Assembly (NCBI GenBank): GCA_001785615.1
Contig: MFUG01000007.1
Coordinates: forward strand, 1 to 35,932
Reading direction: 5' to 3'
DNA length: 35,932 bases
Origin: Candidatus Nomurabacteria bacterium RIFCSPHIGHO2_02_FULL_42_19
GTDB lineage: Bacteria > Patescibacteriota > Minisyncoccia > Phycocordibacterales > UBA9973
The first letter of the stretch is position 1. Every line of letters starts with the position of its first letter. Below the pieces are notes generated by a model, which was not told where the DNA came from, ran no database searches, and saw nothing but the letters and a program-made list of their open reading frames with translations. A program made the position numbers and the translations under genes. This document shows, one piece after another, positions 1 to 35,628 of the stretch.

Positions 1-177
1 TCGCAGGTCAGCTAAACTGCGGTGAATACGTTCTCAAGTCTTGTACTCACCGCCCGTCAAGTCAAGGGAGCCGGGAGTACCCGAAGTATCCACATAAGTG
101 AGTCCTACGGTAAGCTCGGTGACAGGGACTAAGTCGTAACAAGGCACGGCTAGCGGAAGCTGGTCGTGGAATAATTC
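1..177 (+). rRNA. 16S ribosomal RNA, 3' end (5' truncated by window edge)
   Basis: Contains 'ctcaccgcccgtcaagtcaagggagccgggagt' and 'aagtcgtaacaagg', followed by a helix-45-like hairpin ctagc-ggaa-gctgg. The exact 3' end is uncertain because the tail is divergent. Confidence 0.95.
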
Positions 178-244
178 AATTTGAAAAACGTTTCGCTCTT
201 CGGATGAAGAGTGGGAATTAATTGAGTCGGTATTGTGTATTCAA

Positions 245-1300: not shown

Positions 1301-1329
1301 TGAGAAGATTTTTTTGTTATAATTAAACC

Positions 1330-3290: not shown

Positions 3291-3311
3291 ATTTTATGAT
3301 AATATAGCAAA

Positions 3312-12142: not shown

Positions 12143-13234
12143 CTACTCCAGGTGCATCAGGGTCATCTTGTGATCTTTGGGCTCAAATAAGGTGATCTGG
12201 AAATTATAATTCTTGCCGAGTTCTAATTTCTCGCGCAGTTTGGTTTCCGTTCCGAAAGTAGAATTGTGTACCAGGCCCGCTACGCCCTCCTTGATAGATA
12301 CCAAGGCGCCGTGCTTGTTGTATTTGATAACCACCCCTTTGATGATATCTCCCTTTTTCAACTTACCCTCAAATTCTTTCCAAGGATTTTCCTTCAGCGC
12401 CTTGATGGAGAGTGAAATTTTGCCGTCCTTTATTTCAATTACTTTGGCGCGGACAGTGTCTCCTACCTTAAACATGGTGCGAGGGTCTTCCACCAGGCCC
12501 CAATCCAGTTCCGAAATATGCACCAGTCCTTCCAGTCCGTCTTCCAGCTTCAGAAATACGCCGAAGTCCACAATACCTGCGACAATACACTCAAGCTCGT
12601 CGCCTACAGTGTACTTGCTTAGGATCTCCTTTTTCTCTTCTGGGTTGTTGTCCTTTTCAGAGAAGATAAGTTTGCCTTCTTTCGGTAGGGTGGAAATAAT
12701 CATGACTGAAATTTTCTGTCCCACCAATTTCTTCAACTCTTTCAAAATTTTATCTTTATCTGAATCCAGCACGCGAGGATAGTGCTCGGCTTTGAGCTGG
12801 GAAGCAGGCAAGAATCCTTGAATACCTTGCCACTCTAATATTAGTCCTCCCTTGTTCGCATCTTTTATTTCCAAATCCAGAACTGTCTTTGACTTGATGG
12901 CCTTCTCTGCTTCACTCCACATCAGCGCCTGCTTGGCTTCCTTGAGGGAGAGTTCTGTGTAGCCATCTTCATTTTCTGTTTCGACGACTTTCGCTTTGAT
13001 GATGTCGCCAAGGGCGATCTTTTTTATGATGTCTTTAGCGTTAATAAATTCGCGACCGTAAATTATGCCTGTGCCGTAGGGCGAGAGGTCAACATAGACA
13101 GACGACTTTTTAATCATGATCACCGGGCCTTCTATCAAGGAGTCCACTTTCGGTCTCTGACCGCTCCTATCCACTATAGAATTCAGCACCAAGTTTTCCT
13201 TGAAATTTTCTTCTACTGTGTCTTCTTTAATCAT
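12143..13234 (-). CDS. rpsA: 30S ribosomal protein S1 (about four S1 domains)
   Basis: Repeated S1/OB motifs, e.g. VGDELECIVAGIVDFGVFLKLEDGLEGLVHISELDW. Confidence 0.92.
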   Translation of the reverse strand: MIKEDTVEENFKENLVLNSIVDRSGQRPKVDSLIEGPVIMIKKSSVYVDLSPYGTGIIYGREFINAKDIIKKIALGDIIKAKVVETENEDGYTELSLKEAKQALMWSEAEKAIKSKTVLDLEIKDANKGGLILEWQGIQGFLPASQLKAEHYPRVLDSDKDKILKELKKLVGQKISVMIISTLPKEGKLIFSEKDNNPEEKKEILSKYTVGDELECIVAGIVDFGVFLKLEDGLEGLVHISELDWGLVEDPRTMFKVGDTVRAKVIEIKDGKISLSIKALKENPWKEFEGKLKKGDIIKGVVIKYNKHGALVSIKEGVAGLVHNSTFGTETKLREKLELGKNYNFQITLFEPKDHKMTLMHLE

Positions 13235-17756: not shown

Positions 17757-17786
17757 AATTTGTTAATTTAATGCTACAATTAAAGC

Positions 17787-18302
17787 ATGTTTGCTAATCC
17801 AGTAAAAATTTTAAGAATGTTTGGACTGCAGGAAAACGCCGTGGTGGCGGACCTCGGAGCGGGAACCGGATTTTATGCTGTAGCGGCGGGCGAGATGGTG
17901 CCTAAAGGCAAGGTCTATGCAGTGGAAGTGCAGAAGGACTTTTTACCGACTATTAAAAACAAGGCCAGAGAGGCGGGCCTAAATAACGTAGAGGCCCTCT
18001 GGGGCGACGTTGAAAAAATTGGCGGCACTAAAATAGGGGATAATATTGTGGACGCGGTTATCGCCTCCAATATTTTTTTTCAAGTTGAAGATAAGGATAA
18101 ATTTATTGAGGAAACAAAAAGAATATTAAAGCCGGGCGGCCGGGTGCTTTTTATTGACTGGGTTCTATCCCCGGCGGTGCAACAGAAGGCAATCGTTCCC
18201 CAAAGTAAAGCGCGCGAGATGTTTGAGCGGAAGGGCTTTACTTACGAGAAAGATATTGAGGCGGGGGCGCATCATTATGGTATGATATTAAAGAAGACAT
18301 GA
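17787..18302 (+). CDS. class I SAM-dependent methyltransferase
   Basis: VVADLGAGTGFYAVAAGEMV, ILKPGGRVLFIDW. TACAAT 6 nt before ATG. Confidence 0.85.
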   Translation: MFANPVKILRMFGLQENAVVADLGAGTGFYAVAAGEMVPKGKVYAVEVQKDFLPTIKNKAREAGLNNVEALWGDVEKIGGTKIGDNIVDAVIASNIFFQVEDKDKFIEETKRILKPGGRVLFIDWVLSPAVQQKAIVPQSKAREMFERKGFTYEKDIEAGAHHYGMILKKT

Positions 18303-25036: not shown

Positions 25037-25075
25037 ATTAATAGTATAGCATATTGCGGTATAAAAGTCAAGTGG

Positions 25076-25156
25076 TGGGCGAGGGGAGAGTCGAACTCCC
25101 ACCCCTTGCGGGACTAGTTCCTAAGACTAGCGCGGCTACCGTTACGCCACTCGCCC
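25076..25156 (-). tRNA. tRNA-Leu(TAG)
   Basis: Class II cloverleaf; anticodon loop ctTAGga; long variable arm cccgcaagggg. Confidence 0.93.
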
Positions 25157-25735
25157 AATATTTTCAACGCTATTTTTTTCTTTCTTGACAAGCATATCAC
25201 ATTTTCTAAATAAATCATCTTTAGTATTTTTATACTATCGCTCTTACCAAAAGTCAGAGTATAAACAGAGGACTTGTCTGTTTTTGAAATTGAGCCCCCC
25301 GCAACACCAAAGAATCTTTTACATGATTTAAGAATCCAATCTAAAAAATTATTACTTGCTGAACATAGACGTATTTTATATTGTGGGTATTTACTTTCCG
25401 GGTGTTTGGATATTGAGATACTTCCATCGCCATCTATGCATCCCCTAAAAAAATCCGCAAAATATTTTTGAGGTATTTTTAGTTCAGATACCGTTTTTGA
25501 TTTTCTGGGAGTTAGACCCAACTCCAGTAAAAATTCAAAAAAATTCTTGTCTCCAAATTGAAGCATATAATATTTTTTGTCTTTTGAACCCCCTCTGGCT
25601 GTTCTACTTATTTTATTATTGATTCCTAAACATTTCTTGCAATTAATGATCATCTCATAATCCTTTGACGTAATTATCAAATGTCTTAAATCACTAGACA
25701 AATTGCCATCAGTCGCGACGACTCCTATTGTATAC
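25114..25735 (-). CDS. LAGLIDADG homing endonuclease-like ORF (possibly degenerate; coordinates are stop-to-stop)
   Basis: YTIGVVATDGNLSSDLRHLIITSKDYEMI and FADFFRGCIDGDGSISI motifs. No standard start precedes motif 1, and the ORF reads into tRNA-Leu. Confidence 0.75.
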
Positions 25736-25751
25736 GCGAAGTCCTATTTTG

Positions 25752-25824
25752 TGCGCCCAGTTGGGATCGAACCAACGACCTTATCCTTAAGAGGGATCTG
25801 CTCTACCAGCTGAGCTATGGGCGC
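25752..25824 (-). tRNA. tRNA-Lys(CTT)
   Basis: Cloverleaf; anticodon loop ctCTTaa; acceptor gcgccca/tgggcgc. Confidence 0.93.
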
Positions 25825-26203: not shown

Positions 26204-26527
26204 CTACTTGGCTCTTAACAATTCGTCAATTTTTTGGCGATTCTTTTCACCTTGGTCTATGGCGAAATCGATAAAAGGAATTGTCTTTATTTCTAATTTT
26301 TTTTTCAGTAATTCCCGAACTTCACTTCTTTTACGTTTAACAAACAAGAGCACGTCCGCCTCTTTTTCTTCTGGCAGTACGGTGATAAATACTGTAGCGC
26401 GCTTTAAGTCCGGAGAGGCAGTAGCGAAAGTAACCGTGATAAGCGAAGTTCTGTTATTCTCCCGTCCTAAAAATTCCGCCGTCAACTCTTTTATTACCTT
26501 GGCTACCTTCTCATTTCTGGCTGTCAT
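26204..26527 (-). CDS. rbfA: ribosome-binding factor A
   Basis: MTARNEKVAKVIKELTAEFLGRENN...LITVTFATASPDLKRATVFITVLP; next to infB. Confidence 0.88.
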   Translation of the reverse strand: MTARNEKVAKVIKELTAEFLGRENNRTSLITVTFATASPDLKRATVFITVLPEEKEADVLLFVKRKRSEVRELLKKKLEIKTIPFIDFAIDQGEKNRQKIDELLRAK

Positions 26528-26536
26528 AAATTTTAA

Positions 26537-28105
26537 CTATTTTTGGACTACGTTCCATGATACAATCACGTCGCCCGTTGCTATTTCTATTTTTGATTCA
26601 ATCATTATGCCGAACTCCGTTCCCTCAGATACTACACCCGTTTTTACTTTACCGGCTTCCAGGTTTATGATTTTTCCTTGTCCGATTTCAAACTCTCGAC
26701 GGATTATTTTCACCGTACTGCCTTGAGTGATATTTCCCTCTATCACTTTACCTCCCAGAATTTGGCGTTCCTTCGTTCGGCTAAAGGCCTTGAGAATCTT
26801 GGCTCGGCCAGTCGTTTCTTCTGTTTCCACTCGTGGTCTCCTTATTTCCATTTCTTTTTGTAACCACTCCGTCAGCTTGTAGATAACGTCAAAAAAAGAA
26901 ATCACGATACCTCTTTTTTGAGCAACTTCACTCGCGCTTTTGTCGGCTTTCACGTTAAATCCTATCACTAATGCCAGCTCTCCGGCCGAGATGCCCTTTA
27001 TATCTGATTCCGAAATGGATCCGGTGCCTTTCTGAACGATTTTGAAAAGAGCGTTCTCGCCTTTAATTTTTGCTATTTCTTTTTCAATGGCTTCCAAGGA
27101 CCCGGCGACATCGGCTTTAAGCACAATAGGAATTATTTTTTTACTCCCGACGCTTTCAGTCGGGACTCCGATTCCTTGGGATGTCGGAGCTGGTTTGAAA
27201 TTCTGCGCGTATTCTTCCGCTTCTTGTTTTTTGGCGAATGCCTTAAAGGGGCTTCCTACTCTCGGCATAAAATTCCAGCCGACCAGTCGGATCGGGGAGG
27301 AAAAGGTGGCATGGTCAATCATTTCTCCCTTAAAATTCTCCATGATGCGGGTAGAACAGACGGAGTCCTCTGCCACTACGGTCATGCCTTTTTTGATACT
27401 TCCGTTCTTGATAATGAGCGTTGCCTGGATTCCACGCTTGGGATCAAGGGAGGTCTCTATCACGAGCCCAGTTGCGCACTCTTCAGGGTTGCCGGTGAAA
27501 TTTTCTACTTCTGCCAAAATCAAAATTAAAGACAATAAACTGTCCACTCCTTCACCCGTCTTCCCGGAGATAAGCGAGCAGGGAACTTTCCCGCCGTAGT
27601 TTTCCAAATAAATTTCATTTTCCGCTAATTCTGTTTTCGTTTTTTCAACATTGGCGTCGGGCTTGTCTATTTTATTAATGGCGACGATACATGGCGTTTG
27701 GCTTTCTACGATTGTTTTCCAGGCCTCAATTGTTTGCGGTTTTACTCCTTCCGGGGCCGAGACGACCAGGATAGCAATATCCGCCACTGCCGCGCCGCGC
27801 TCGCGCATTTTTGAAAAGGCCTCATGGCCCGGAGTGTCTAGGAAAGTTATTTTCCCCGACGCATACGGTCGGGGTCCCGACCCAGATTTCTCTGGCGTCG
27901 GGATTTCAACTTCGTAGGCAGAAATATGCTGGGTTATGCTACCGGCTTCTTTGTCTACCACGTTTGTTTTTCTGATGTAGTCCAAAAGCGTGGATTTGCC
28001 ATGGTCAATATGGCCCATGACCACCACTACCGGTGGGCGCGCGACTGCCTGCCCGACCTTTCGGTCGTTCGGGCGGGTATTTTTTTGTTCCTTGTTTTTA
28101 TCCAT
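26537..28105 (-). CDS. infB: translation initiation factor IF-2 (short form)
   Basis: [53 protein letters not shown]. Confidence 0.97.
27145..27189. repeat. tandem palindromic element, in-frame in infB
   Basis: TCCCGAC-gctttca-GTCGGGA then CTCCGAt...aTGTCGGAG. Confidence 0.85.
27854..27903. repeat. tandem palindromic element, in-frame in infB
   Basis: CCCCGAC..GTCGGGG-TCCCGAC..GTCGGGA. Confidence 0.9.
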
Positions 28106-28688: not shown

Positions 28689-29912
28689 ATGCCGAAATCA
28701 ACGATAAAACCGAAGAAAATATACATGGATTACGCCTCAAGCGCGCTTTCGGCGTCAGCCAACCCGAGCGCAATTCATGATTTGGGAGTGAAGGAGAGGA
28801 GTAAACTAGAAGATGCCCGATCAAAAGTGGCGAAGATTTTGAATGCGAATAGTAATGAAATTATTTTTACCTCCGGAGCGACCGAGAGCAATAATTTAGC
28901 GATACTTGGTTTGCTACAGAGAATGAACTTTTTTTCAGTTGCTCGGTCCCTCGCTTCGCTCAGCCACTCCTTCAAAAAAGTTCATTCTCTTCCGCATATC
29001 GTGACTACGAATATTGAACATGCGTCGGTTTTAGAGGTTTGTAAGTATTTGGAAAAAACAAAACAAGCCAAAGTAACTTATGTACCCGTGGGAACAAATG
29101 GCATAGTAGATCCTCGAGCGATTAAAAAAGCATTAGGGCCGAATACAATTCTGGTTTCCGTTATGTATGCCAACAACGAAATCGGCACAGTACAGCCGAT
29201 CAGGGATATCGCAAAGGAAATTAGGCATTTTAACAAAGTAAATCCCAAGCAAAATCATAAGATATTTTTTCACACTGATGCGGTGCAAGCAATAAATTAT
29301 TTACCGATAAACGTAGCTCAACTTGGGGTTGATTTGATGACTTTTAATAGCGCTAAAATTTACGGGCCCAAAGGAGCTGGTGTTCTCTACGTAAAAAGGC
29401 AAGTGCCTATCAGAGGAATTATGTTCGGAGGAAATCAAGAAGGGGGACTACGGCCCGGAACGGAAAATGTTGCTAGCATTCTTGGACTTGCGCAGGCGCT
29501 AACTAAAACAGAGAAAATAAAAAACGAAGAAGTGAAACGCCTAACCAAACTTCGCGATTATTTTTTCAACCAATTATCCCATTCTAACATTCTAACGAAC
29601 ATTAGAATAACAATTAACGGTGATTTGAAAAACCGTCTCCCGAACAATATAAATATCACTATTCCAAAAATCCCAAGCGATCTCCTAGTCATTGAGTTGT
29701 CGGCATACGGCATAATGGCCTCTGCCAAGAGCGCTTGCAAGTCAGGTGACGGCAAGACCTCGCATGTAATAGAAGCCATTAACCCAAAGACCCAAGATAC
29801 GGATGGCTCCCTGCGATTTTCTCTCGGCCGCGACACTGATAAAAAAGATATTGATTACACTATTCAAGCTCTAAAAGAAATTTTGACAAAGCTAAAAAAG
29901 TGGTACAATTAA
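28689..29912 (+). CDS. cysteine desulfurase (NifS/IscS family)
   Basis: IYMDYASSALSASANPSAIHDLG, HTDAVQAINYLPINV, SAKSACKSGDGKTSHVI. TATACT 6 nt before ATG. Confidence 0.92.
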   Translation: MPKSTIKPKKIYMDYASSALSASANPSAIHDLGVKERSKLEDARSKVAKILNANSNEIIFTSGATESNNLAILGLLQRMNFFSVARSLASLSHSFKKVHSLPHIVTTNIEHASVLEVCKYLEKTKQAKVTYVPVGTNGIVDPRAIKKALGPNTILVSVMYANNEIGTVQPIRDIAKEIRHFNKVNPKQNHKIFFHTDAVQAINYLPINVAQLGVDLMTFNSAKIYGPKGAGVLYVKRQVPIRGIMFGGNQEGGLRPGTENVASILGLAQALTKTEKIKNEEVKRLTKLRDYFFNQLSHSNILTNIRITINGDLKNRLPNNINITIPKIPSDLLVIELSAYGIMASAKSACKSGDGKTSHVIEAINPKTQDTDGSLRFSLGRDTDKKDIDYTIQALKEILTKLKKWYN

Positions 29913-29915
29913 CCA

Positions 29916-30332
29916 ATGGATATTAAGGAGCCAATAGTTGTAAAATTTCATCCGCACCCTTTTTGTTTTCTCGGTTTCTATTTTGGCGGAATTATTTTTA
30001 TGGTTTTAAGTTTTTTTGTTCTCCCGCTTCTTTTTTTAGCTGGAATTTTAATTTTTATCTTAGCTGAGGTTTTTCGACGCGCGGAAACCTTTTATGTATT
30101 AGAAAGCGGGGTGGCAAAGGAATATAAATTATTATCAACTTATAGAAAATTCGCGGAATTTAGCAAAATTCAAAACATGGAAGTGAATCAGAGTTTTCTT
30201 GAAAACATATTAGGTATTGGCACTATTCATTTAGATACTGCGGGAACGGACGAAAGGGAAGTGAGTTTTCGTGGCGCTAGAGACCCATACAAAATTGAGC
30301 AGATCATTCGAGAGAAGATGAAAACTATCTAG
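29916..30332 (+). CDS. bacterial PH domain-like (DUF304-type) membrane protein
   Basis: Two TMs, then YVLESGVAKEYKLLSTYRKFAEFSKIQNMEVNQSFLENILGIGTIHLDTAG. TACAAT 6 nt before ATG. Confidence 0.7.
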   Translation: MDIKEPIVVKFHPHPFCFLGFYFGGIIFMVLSFFVLPLLFLAGILIFILAEVFRRAETFYVLESGVAKEYKLLSTYRKFAEFSKIQNMEVNQSFLENILGIGTIHLDTAGTDEREVSFRGARDPYKIEQIIREKMKTI

Positions 30333-30388
30333 GGGAGAATTTTAGTAGGACGATTTTGAAAAAACTAAAAAGATGGTATAATTAAGGC

Positions 30389-31150
30389 ATGGACATTAAG
30401 GACTTAAATAAATCGCAACTCATACTGCTTGCTATCCTGCTTAGCTTCATTACTTCCATTGCCACCGGGATTGTCACGGTGACCCTGATGCAACAGGCGC
30501 CGGACTCGGTTACAGTGCCCATCAACCGCATTATTAAACAGACCGTTGAAAAGATTCAACAAGTGGAAGGCAAGACCACGGTAAACACGGTAGTGATAAA
30601 AGAAGAGGATTTAGTGGTGGATGCTATAGCCAAAAATCAGTCCACGGTGTTTGCTTTATCCAAAGAGATTATCGATCTGAACAATCAGAATGCAGAAGTT
30701 TCGGCCGGGAGAGGATTCGCGGTTTCCGAAGGTGGGATTATCGTCGCTGACTCAACCCTGGTCGGCGGTAAGGGAGTATATTATGTCTCCAACGCCAGCG
30801 GTAAATTCAATGCACAGTTTATTTCTTTAGATGAAGCCGGATTTTCATATTTGCAAATAGGCACGCCGCTTGACGAGAAAAACGTACTTTCTTTCACTCT
30901 GCCAGTGCCGGGAGACGTGAGTAAAATGAAAATAGGACAGAAAATTATAGTAATGGGTAATGCTATTTCTTCTTTTATTTTTGACGGCGACAAGGAGCTA
31001 AAAATAAATGTTCCCAAATCAAGTGCCGGCGGGTTGGTCGTTAACTTAGATGGAGAGGCCCTAGGCATTGCTCTCTCCAGTGAAACAAAACCCTTTACCT
31101 CGATTGATGTGATCAACGAGTCATTGAAACAATTAACAATTACAAATTAA
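30389..31150 (+). CDS. HtrA/trypsin-like fold protein, probably catalytically inactive
   Basis: N-terminal TM; GRGFAVSEGGIIVADSTLV and KSSAGGLVVNLDGEALGIALS align in style with S1C proteases but lack the catalytic His and Ser. Confidence 0.7.
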   Translation: MDIKDLNKSQLILLAILLSFITSIATGIVTVTLMQQAPDSVTVPINRIIKQTVEKIQQVEGKTTVNTVVIKEEDLVVDAIAKNQSTVFALSKEIIDLNNQNAEVSAGRGFAVSEGGIIVADSTLVGGKGVYYVSNASGKFNAQFISLDEAGFSYLQIGTPLDEKNVLSFTLPVPGDVSKMKIGQKIIVMGNAISSFIFDGDKELKINVPKSSAGGLVVNLDGEALGIALSSETKPFTSIDVINESLKQLTITN

Positions 31151-34014: not shown

Positions 34015-35628
34015 TTATAGTTGTTTCTTGTTATGCGCCGGTCGGATAGTGGCTATTCCAGTGCGCTGTAAACGCACCGCCTTCGGGCATCGTTGGTTCG
34101 AGTCCAACCCGGCGCACAAAATAGGACTTCGTGAAGTTTTGGGAAAAGAAAAAGTGTCGGAGCCGTTTTGCCGAACGGCAAAACGGGCAAGAGTGGCCTC
34201 TGCGAATTCGTATTCGGGTTTCCAAATCCAAGAGGGAGATTTTTCGGAAATGAGGCGGTTCGTTCCAATTTTTTGAACAAATTGAGATATCTCGGTTAGA
34301 GATTCCATAGAAGCAATTTTTTCCGCTTGGCATAAGGTTTTTATGTATTCTTTGGCTGGTTCAATCCAGCCAACAATCTGCTTCCGTAGAAGCGACTCCT
34401 TTTCATTTTTGAGAGATATTTTTTGCTCGACAAATTGCTCCTTTTTCTTGCGATAGGTGTCTTCGTCAATCAGATTGTCCAAATAACCGGAGACCAGTTT
34501 GTCGAGCTTTTCATCTATCAAAAATATTTTCTTTGAGATCGCTTCTGCGGAAACCGTAGCCAATTTTGTTTCTTTCTTTTCTTCAATATCGAGCATGGTG
34601 TGTAATTCACGCGTCCAATCAGTCGGTAAAGCGATTGCTTGCGATTTTTCTATGATTTTCCTTTTCAAATCATTTTCCTGTAAATACTTCTCACTACAAG
34701 CTCCATGCTTCCTTGTGCAACGATAATATCTGTAAGTGCCACCATTACCATGTGTCCATTGTGCTGTAATCATAGAACCACATGAGCAATGGAAAAGTCC
34801 AACGAAAGGAAAATCATGTTTTGATTTTGTTTTGCGAGGGCGACTTATCTCTCGCAAAACTTCCGCAACTTTCTCAAACAATCGCCTTGTAATGAGGGGC
34901 TGGAATTTTCCTTCATACACTTCGCCATTCCATTTCATTACGCCCATATACAATTCATTGCAAAGAAAATGTAGAATGGCAAAATTGGATTTTACTTTTC
35001 CCTTAGTCAATTTAGCAAAGTATTCAGCAATACTCTGAAAGGTATGTTTTCCAGTGGCATACTCGGCAAAAACCTTTTTGACAATTTTGGCTTCTCTGGG
35101 TTCTGGCACAATATTGCGAAGTCTGTGGTCATAGATGTAGCCAAAAGGTTTTTGGCCGGGCCAGCCGCCCTGCCGAAGTTTAGCGCGATTTCCTCGCCGA
35201 ACATTTTCGGACAGATTGTCTATGTAATATTTGGCATTAGAAAGAGCGATGGAGAGAAAAAACTTTCCCGATGGCGAATTATCAAAAACAGATGTTGGAA
35301 ACTTCAAATCGGCAAGTTTTCCAGTGTCTAATAAATATATTAACCGTCCGCCATCGACAGAGTTTCTAGACAATCTGTCCGTATGCCACGCCAAAATACC
35401 GAACTGATGAGGAAGACCTACTTCGATTTTGTCGAGCAGATTGTTGAAAACTTCTCGTCCGGGAATTTTAGCCGTTTTCTTCTCGATAAAAGTTTCAATA
35501 ATCTCTAACTTTTCACGCTCGGCAAATTCTCGAAGCTCAGTCATCTGAGCTTCGAGAGAAAGAACCTGACGGTCTTCCTCATCAGTACTTTTACGAATGT
35601 AGATGTAATATTTTGTCGTGGTTTCCAT
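34015..35628 (-). CDS. large serine recombinase (resolvase + recombinase + zinc ribbon)
   Basis: YYIYIRKSTDEEDRQVLSLEAQ, GILAWHTDRLSRNSVDGG, GGWPGQKPFGYIYD, GLFHCSCGSMITAQWTHGNGGTYRYYRC. The C-terminus runs antisense through tRNA-Tyr. Confidence 0.92.
   Translation of the reverse strand: METTTKYYIYIRKSTDEEDRQVLSLEAQMTELREFAEREKLEIIETFIEKKTAKIPGREVFNNLLDKIEVGLPHQFGILAWHTDRLSRNSVDGGRLIYLLDTGKLADLKFPTSVFDNSPSGKFFLSIALSNAKYYIDNLSENVRRGNRAKLRQGGWPGQKPFGYIYDHRLRNIVPEPREAKIVKKVFAEYATGKHTFQSIAEYFAKLTKGKVKSNFAILHFLCNELYMGVMKWNGEVYEGKFQPLITRRLFEKVAEVLREISRPRKTKSKHDFPFVGLFHCSCGSMITAQWTHGNGGTYRYYRCTRKHGACSEKYLQENDLKRKIIEKSQAIALPTDWTRELHTMLDIEEKKETKLATVSAEAISKKIFLIDEKLDKLVSGYLDNLIDEDTYRKKKEQFVEQKISLKNEKESLLRKQIVGWIEPAKEYIKTLCQAEKIASMESLTEISQFVQKIGTNRLISEKSPSWIWKPEYEFAEATLARFAVRQNGSDTFSFPKTSRSPILCAGLDSNQRCPKAVRLQRTGIATIRPAHNKKQL
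34035..34116 (+). tRNA. tRNA-Tyr(GTA)
   Basis: Class II cloverleaf; anticodon loop ctGTAaa; acceptor gcgccgg/ccggcgc. Confidence 0.94.
34114..34263. repeat. left arm of about 150-bp inverted repeat
   Basis: gcacaaaataggacttcgtgaag...ggcggttcgt matches the reverse complement of 35716-35865 with about 5 mismatches. Confidence 0.95.

Follow-up and report, generated by a model that had tools for sequence, protein, structure and literature searches.

Apparent order-wide replacement of the 16S rRNA anti-Shine-Dalgarno tail in Candidatus Nomurabacteria, Candidatus Zambryskibacteria, and relatives, with predicted leaderless initiation and a putative precursor hairpin

Few bacterial sequences are as conserved as CCUCC, the anti-Shine-Dalgarno (aSD) core. 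The stretch of DNA analyzed here (35,932 bases, termed the window herein; the first part of contig C7 in a draft genome of 614 kb that is 92% complete) opens with the 3′ end of a 16S rRNA gene in which an earlier note, made from the sequence alone, had found no such core and from which it had concluded that canonical Shine-Dalgarno (SD) recognition is probably lost or rewired. The locus thus raises the questions of whether this tail is genuine, how far it extends among related genomes, and how translation might start without it.

The window begins within the 16S rRNA gene, and the features discussed below are collected in Table 1. The identity of the gene is given by a covariance-model match over the 3′ domain, which includes an intact helix 45, and the RF00177 alignment of bases 1 to 181 extends to the last position of the model. 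The sequence AAGTCGTAACAAGG (positions 131 to 144) lies directly 5′ of helix 45, and the RNA after the helix reads GAAUAAUUCAAUUU (in DNA, G169 A170 A T A A T T C A A T T T). The earlier note had counted TCGTG as part of the tail; these bases belong to the 3′ strand of helix 45. Its main observation holds, since the core site reads ATTCA.

TABLE 1 Coordinates of features in the window
Feature	Position	Strand	Evidence
16S rRNA 3′ fragment, 181 nt, upper part of helix 44 to tail, truncated by contig start	1..181	+	Rfam RF00177 SSU_rRNA_bacteria, 133 bits, model 1342-1533
Helix 45, 10 bp, CACGGCTAGC-GGAA-GCTGGTCGTG; arms 145-154 and 159-168, loop GGAA 155-158 intact	145..168	+	Sequence
Noncanonical 16S tail GAATAATTCAATTT where GATCACCTCCTTT is expected	169..182	+	Sequence; order-wide consensus
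aSD core site, ATTCA (AUUCA) and not CCTCC (CCUCC)	174..178	+	RF00177 alignment; column table
Putative mini-hairpin TTCA-ATT-TGAA, 5′ arm is the aSD site	175..185	+	Pairing conserved by compensatory change across families
Extended −10 TGTTATAAT, −15 to −7 of ATG at 1330 (predicted leaderless)	1315..1323	+	Sequence
Extended −10 TGATAATAT, −15 to −7 of SecA start codon (3312)	3297..3305	+	Motif scan
S1-domain protein, three S1 stretches above threshold; candidate mRNA binder for SD-less starts	12143..13234	-	Pfam PF00575, 122 bits
Extended −10 TGCTACAAT, −15 to −7 of methyltransferase-like ORF at 17787	17772..17780	+	Motif scan
rbfA, 30S maturation factor	26204..26527	-	Pfam RBFA
infB, initiation factor IF2	26537..28105	-	Pfam IF-2 and GTP_EFTU
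Extended −10 TGGTACAAT, −15 to −7 of ORF at 29916	29901..29909	+	Motif scan
Extended −10 TGGTATAAT, −15 to −7 of ORF at 30389	30374..30382	+	Motif scan

A conventional tail might lie elsewhere in the genome or behind an intron. A scan of the window found no CCTCC downstream of the 16S gene before position 1903, which is itself within a protein gene, so no aSD lies close downstream, as the earlier note had stated. An intron, which had seemed not obvious from the letters, is unlikely: no intron family or structure and no downstream exon carrying CCUCC were detected in the window, and the 16S match runs to the model end. Pattern searches of the draft (92% complete) found a single 16S 3′ end and no second full 16S copy. 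The remainder of the window's 16S gene was not found in the draft, a weak zero given that the search used also missed the 181-nt fragment.

Three other features of the window and its relatives were observed in passing. At window positions 44 to 60, the 16S sequence reads GTACTCACCGCCCGTC in place of GTACACACCGCCCGTC, which we take to be near-universal; the change, in our own numbering A1396 to U of Escherichia coli, is present in 112 of 113 matches among the fetched loci, and the common 1392R primer would mismatch it. A LAGLIDADG-type endonuclease ORF (25114-25701, minus strand), whose 3′ end overlaps tRNA-Leu (25073-25156) and which lies near tRNA-Lys (25751-25824), may be of intron origin or a homing element associated with a tRNA cluster. 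The 3′ end of a large serine recombinase gene (34015-35628, minus strand) overlaps an ARAGORN tRNA-Tyr call on the opposite strand (34035-34117), and this locus is possibly an element integrated at a tRNA gene.

That the window holds only a contig-end fragment from a draft genome would fit an assembly artifact, a pseudogene, an intron upstream of the tail, or an additional, normal copy of the gene. Taken as a group, these explanations are extremely unlikely in view of the searches above and the comparison with relatives, a second copy as far as the 92%-complete draft covers. The exact 30-nt pattern of helix 45 and tail occurs in 80 records from separate assemblies, labeled mostly Ca. Nomurabacteria, Ca. 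Zambryskibacteria, or Paceibacterota, and many of these hits lie within long contigs. Eight 16S genes with the AUUCA-type tail scored 712 to 1,366 bits against the Rfam small-subunit model, six of them at full length and the long ones at 1,298 to 1,366 bits. The 16S 3′-end pattern was matched in 161 of 217 genomes sampled from the order, and none of 129 native tails from 75 families carried CCTCC (among the matches listed, with some near-duplicates omitted and native copies only). Given the identical pattern in separate assemblies and the complete lack of CCTCC among these tails, the observation is real, far beyond chance or assembly error.

The few 16S copies with CCTCC in genomes of the order (six such contigs were noted) are likely binning contamination, because they lie on separate contigs, have a different, foreign-type helix 45, and accompany the order's own 16S type in all genomes but one. 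Conversely, Nomurabacteria-type 16S was seen in three records labeled Bacteroidetes, Burkholderiales, and Methylococcaceae, likely also through binning contamination.

Under a strict CCTCC criterion, the rest of the class is mixed: among the matches listed, at least 17 families retain the core, at least 23 are without it, and at least 2 contain both kinds. Outside the class, CCTCC is present in almost all sampled CPR genomes. Since the class is mixed and its CPR neighbors almost uniformly carry the core, the loss probably arose within Paceibacteria, and probably more than once. Tails outside the order are highly variable; four genomes of the class have intermediate tails such as GGATTTTCTCCTTTTAAGGA and GGAACATCTCCTTTCTAGGGAG, possible steps in aSD decay during which the hairpin described below was retained. 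As a separate observation on the organization of these loci, neither 23S nor 5S rRNA genes follow the 16S gene in the window or were seen near it in eight 8-kb loci of the genus, so that the rRNA genes seem to be unlinked in the genus; an RNase P RNA gene lies near the 16S gene in two of these eight loci.

Is the SD mechanism itself still in use? Start codons were called without reference to upstream signals, as the first ATG of long ORFs, provided that the 12 codons around it held no further start codon. Over 281 kb of the window's own genome, 9.3% of starts had an SD-like tetramer between −18 and −4, compared to 9.6% after shuffling. The same script recovered the signal in the E. coli positive control (45.5% versus 24.9%; z of 3.3). 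SD enrichment was likewise absent in two other families of the order, in the genus loci, and in six aSD-positive relatives from the class. Since no native tail carries CCUCC and no SD enrichment appeared in a pipeline that detects E. coli SD, canonical SD recognition looks lost in the order, a reading that we consider well supported. Because the aSD-positive relatives also show no enrichment, the SD mechanism had probably fallen out of use before the aSD sequence disappeared.

The new tail could instead be a new aSD, with UUCAA pairing with a UUGAA-type motif in mRNA leaders; a UUCAA core is indeed conserved in many of the 75 families, including several whose tails have no hairpin. The leaders themselves speak against such pairing. 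TTGAA, the tail complement, was found upstream of starts 3 times in the window's own genome (5.7 expected), if anything a depletion, and not at all in the genus loci (4.8 expected). Predicted tail-mRNA duplex energies were no better than those of shuffles, while the E. coli control was better (z of −2.7). A new aSD is therefore very improbable, and of the two outcomes proposed in the earlier note, loss of SD recognition is upheld and rewiring through a new pairing is not. Two published arrangements are also at odds with the data: upstream motifs complementary to the tail are not enriched, as they would be for a variant aSD with a variant SD (category iii of PMC10783764), and the tail does not retain CCUCC, unlike the sequestered aSD of the Bacteroidota type.

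What is enriched upstream of starts is a promoter. The k-mers most enriched were TGCTA, TATAAT, TGATA, and TGTTA, which together form an extended −10 promoter (TGnTATAAT) whose position relative to the start codon is fixed, from −15 to −7. TGnTAnnnT stands exactly at −15 in 15 to 20% of the order's starts, compared to a mean of about 0.3 to 0.55 starts per other offset. A strict −10 box lies exactly at −12 in 57 of 368 starts of the order and in 9 of 380 starts of aSD-positive class relatives (Fisher P = 8e-11), and the difference persists against G246, the sole low-GC aSD-positive genome with many starts (P = 0.001). A published survey of other bacteria takes TANNNT some 12 bp before the start codon as the mark of leaderless genes (PMC3160421), and in the order such a box occurs there more often than by chance. 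Because these promoters lie so near the start codons, the predicted transcripts start at the AUG, and many messages of the order thus appear to begin right at the start codon, i.e., to be leaderless.

With a relaxed motif and after background subtraction, about 21 to 28% of unambiguous starts are predicted to be leaderless, and the motif precedes 25 to 39% of genes that are apparently first in their transcription unit. Promoters were found for only this share of starts, and the majority depends on a less defined, SD-less route. Operon-internal genes have A-rich leaders with TAATT motifs. In closely spaced genes of the order, TAATT was seen directly before the start codon 50 times (17.6 expected) and is possibly an SD-less initiation or S1-binding element. 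A strict coupling between aSD loss and leaderlessness was rejected, because the aSD-negative genomes G075 and G127, from outside the order, show little leaderless signal (about 4%), and in G136 it is only weak. Within the order, since the extended −10 at −15 is enriched and tail complements are not, SD pairing seems to have been replaced by leaderless and SD-less initiation.

We then considered factors that act at the 16S 3′ end or in initiation. Era, which reads GAUCACCUCC beside helix 45 (PMC10582724), did not exceed the curated cutoff in any of 51 class genomes, aSD-positive and aSD-negative alike. The matches that were found fell below the cutoff and covered mainly the GTPase domain, and for this reason they are read as other GTPases. 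An Era loss specific to aSD-less lineages was rejected on the same counts; because its absence fails to distinguish relatives with an aSD from those without one, it is permissive at most, and Era, like SD use, was probably lost before the aSD. KsgA/RsmA, which modifies the helix 45 loop, was present in 50 of the 51 genomes, including the window's own, and this fits the intact loop. YbeY was found in 36 of 38 genomes and IF3 in 26 of 26; IF2, which favors leaderless initiation in other bacteria, is encoded in the window. A loss of bS21, which normally contacts the aSD that is gone here, does not track the loss of the aSD, as roughly half of the genomes in either group have a weak bS21 match. 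One such match adjoins ybeY (G000:C2:3673-4213), and the pair is also close in several relatives.

If neither SD pairing nor Era acts on the tail, it could be functionless and decaying neutrally, its similarity across the order reflecting shared ancestry; the wide variation of tails outside the order would fit. Within the order, the column statistics argue otherwise. When every family is given the same weight, the sequence that follows helix 45 has the consensus G-A-[A/U]-U-A-[A/U]-U-U-C-A-A, with an information content of 1.0 to 2.0 bits at most positions up to 9 (0.7 and 0.95 at the two A/U positions). This drops to about 0.4 at position 10, and a second rise at positions 14 and 15 is followed by none beyond. 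Conservation of the tail far exceeds that of the bases shortly beyond it, and the tail is apparently re-fixed with a new consensus rather than merely eroded.

The second rise coincides with the 3′ arm of a potential hairpin, in which U-U-C-A (tail positions 5 to 8) is able to pair with U-G-A-A immediately downstream. In 104 of the 129 tails this pairing gives a hairpin with a stem of 3 bp or more and usually 3 to 4 nt in the loop; it is missing in the other 25 and, where present, is weak (3 to 5 bp, mostly A-U). The pairs vary on both sides, with U-A, G-C, and A-U at position 5, C-G, U-A, and A-U at position 7, and A-U and C-G at position 8. Pair counting was replaced by a swap test, in which downstream segments were exchanged between families in 1,000 trials; the MAFFT tail alignment placed the variable loop poorly. 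With relatedness between families ignored, the observed pairing was reached in none of 1,000 swaps, both in the order and in aSD-negative families of other orders. The result was weaker among tails whose 5′ arm had changed (14 of 1,000), and the test is uninformative for invariant 5′ arms (164 of 1,000 for TCA and all for CCTCC). In a fold of window positions 148 to 200, the outer helix was disregarded, as this stretch cuts helix 45 in half; two other tails folded with the same truncation favored different pairing, so single-sequence folds do not decide for or against the hairpin. Pairing held by compensatory change, together with the conservation profile, makes neutral decay improbable.

The same arrangement, as CUCC...GGAG, is seen in CCUCC-bearing CPR relatives; the hairpin is therefore probably older than aSD loss. 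In those relatives it is probably part of the precursor, and we infer that it works in processing of the 16S precursor, for which YbeY is retained. This suggests that the former aSD site is now constrained mainly by a precursor hairpin, with both this role and the mature 3′ end placed by inference. Alternatively, the hairpin might be kept in mature 16S as a short terminal helix that shields the 3′ end or binds a protein such as bS21 or S1. The compensatory changes and the renewed conservation at the 3′ arm are compatible with this, but conservation is highest only to position 9, near the usual mature end, and the relatives' hairpin points to the precursor; we regard a mature terminal helix as doubtful. 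It is rather unlikely that the site now serves the mature ribosome as a novel functional element, i.e., a covarying terminal mini-helix (UUCA-loop-UGAA) that takes the place of the SD-aSD duplex near the mRNA exit and specializes the 30S subunit for leaderless mRNAs throughout the order.

Taken together, we consider it likely that the 16S aSD tail has been replaced throughout this order of Ca. Nomurabacteria, Ca. Zambryskibacteria, and relatives (Paceibacteria, CPR), along with leaderless and SD-less initiation and a constraint from a precursor hairpin. Translation would start on leaderless mRNAs that are bound directly and, for genes within operons, at A/U-rich SD-less starts aided by S1, IF2, and IF3. 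With SD pairing and Era, the reader of GAUCACCUCC, both gone, CCUCC would no longer be under selection for either. The site would retain an older second job, pairing with downstream precursor sequence in a small hairpin for making the 16S 3′ end, and the hairpin could have drifted from CUCC/GGAG to UUCA/UGAA or UUCC/GGAA with pairing kept throughout.

An order without CCUCC, with sister families of the same class that carry it, offers a direct test of why the sequence is normally kept. The candidate reasons are mRNA choice, Era-dependent assembly, and precursor processing, and the data point to an earlier loss of the first two, with the precursor hairpin as the constraint that still acts on the site. 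Gene finders that expect SD motifs likely miscall starts in these genomes, for which extended −10 boxes at −15 would be a better start signal.

Loss of the aSD in a few CPR genomes is already published, but its order-wide extent, the covarying hairpin, and the leaderless signature were not found in open papers; a search of the open-access literature, as distinct from subscription papers and preprints, yielded nothing for this group on either leaderless genes or the structure of the tail. Era loss in CPR has been described in PMC10582724 and PMC12641178; Era is absent there as it seems to be here, and RbfA is kept in Paceibacteria. The accessible texts draw no link from Era loss to a changed tail, and that link is ours. 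PMC12641178 (2025), a study of CPR biogenesis factors, remarks that annotation of the 16S 3′ end is often incomplete; it mentions neither SD nor aSD. In Flavobacterium-type aSD sequestration in Bacteroidota (PMC6847099 and PMC8710568), SD motifs are similarly rare and an A-rich region precedes the AUG, but CCUCC is kept there, whereas the sequence is replaced here. A survey of 128 taxa without CCUCC (PMC6107228) includes Chryseobacterium, Elizabethkingia, Blattabacterium, Mycoplasma, Carsonella, and Hodgkinia, which share a variant or absent aSD and generally no recognizable SD; those are few genera and extreme endosymbionts, unlike a large environmental CPR order with an apparently re-fixed tail. 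The TA-led genes of Actinobacteria and Deinococcus-Thermus (PMC3160421) likewise have TANNNT about 12 bp before the start codon in >20% of genes, but there the SD system coexists, while here there is neither aSD nor SD and the promoter is of the extended TGn form. Closest are the SD-scarce CPR without CCUCC listed in PMC10783764 (PLoS One 2024), namely, Ca. Campbellbacteria, Wolfebacteria, Absconditabacteria SR1, and Peribacter; Nomurabacteria are not mentioned in its main text. These belong to the same broad bacterial group and share the missing CCUCC and few SD interactions, but each lineage is represented in that table by one or two genomes and filed as SD independent, whereas here the loss is order-wide and is accompanied by a new consensus for the tail, a hairpin that covaries, and a leaderless signature of the extended −10 type.
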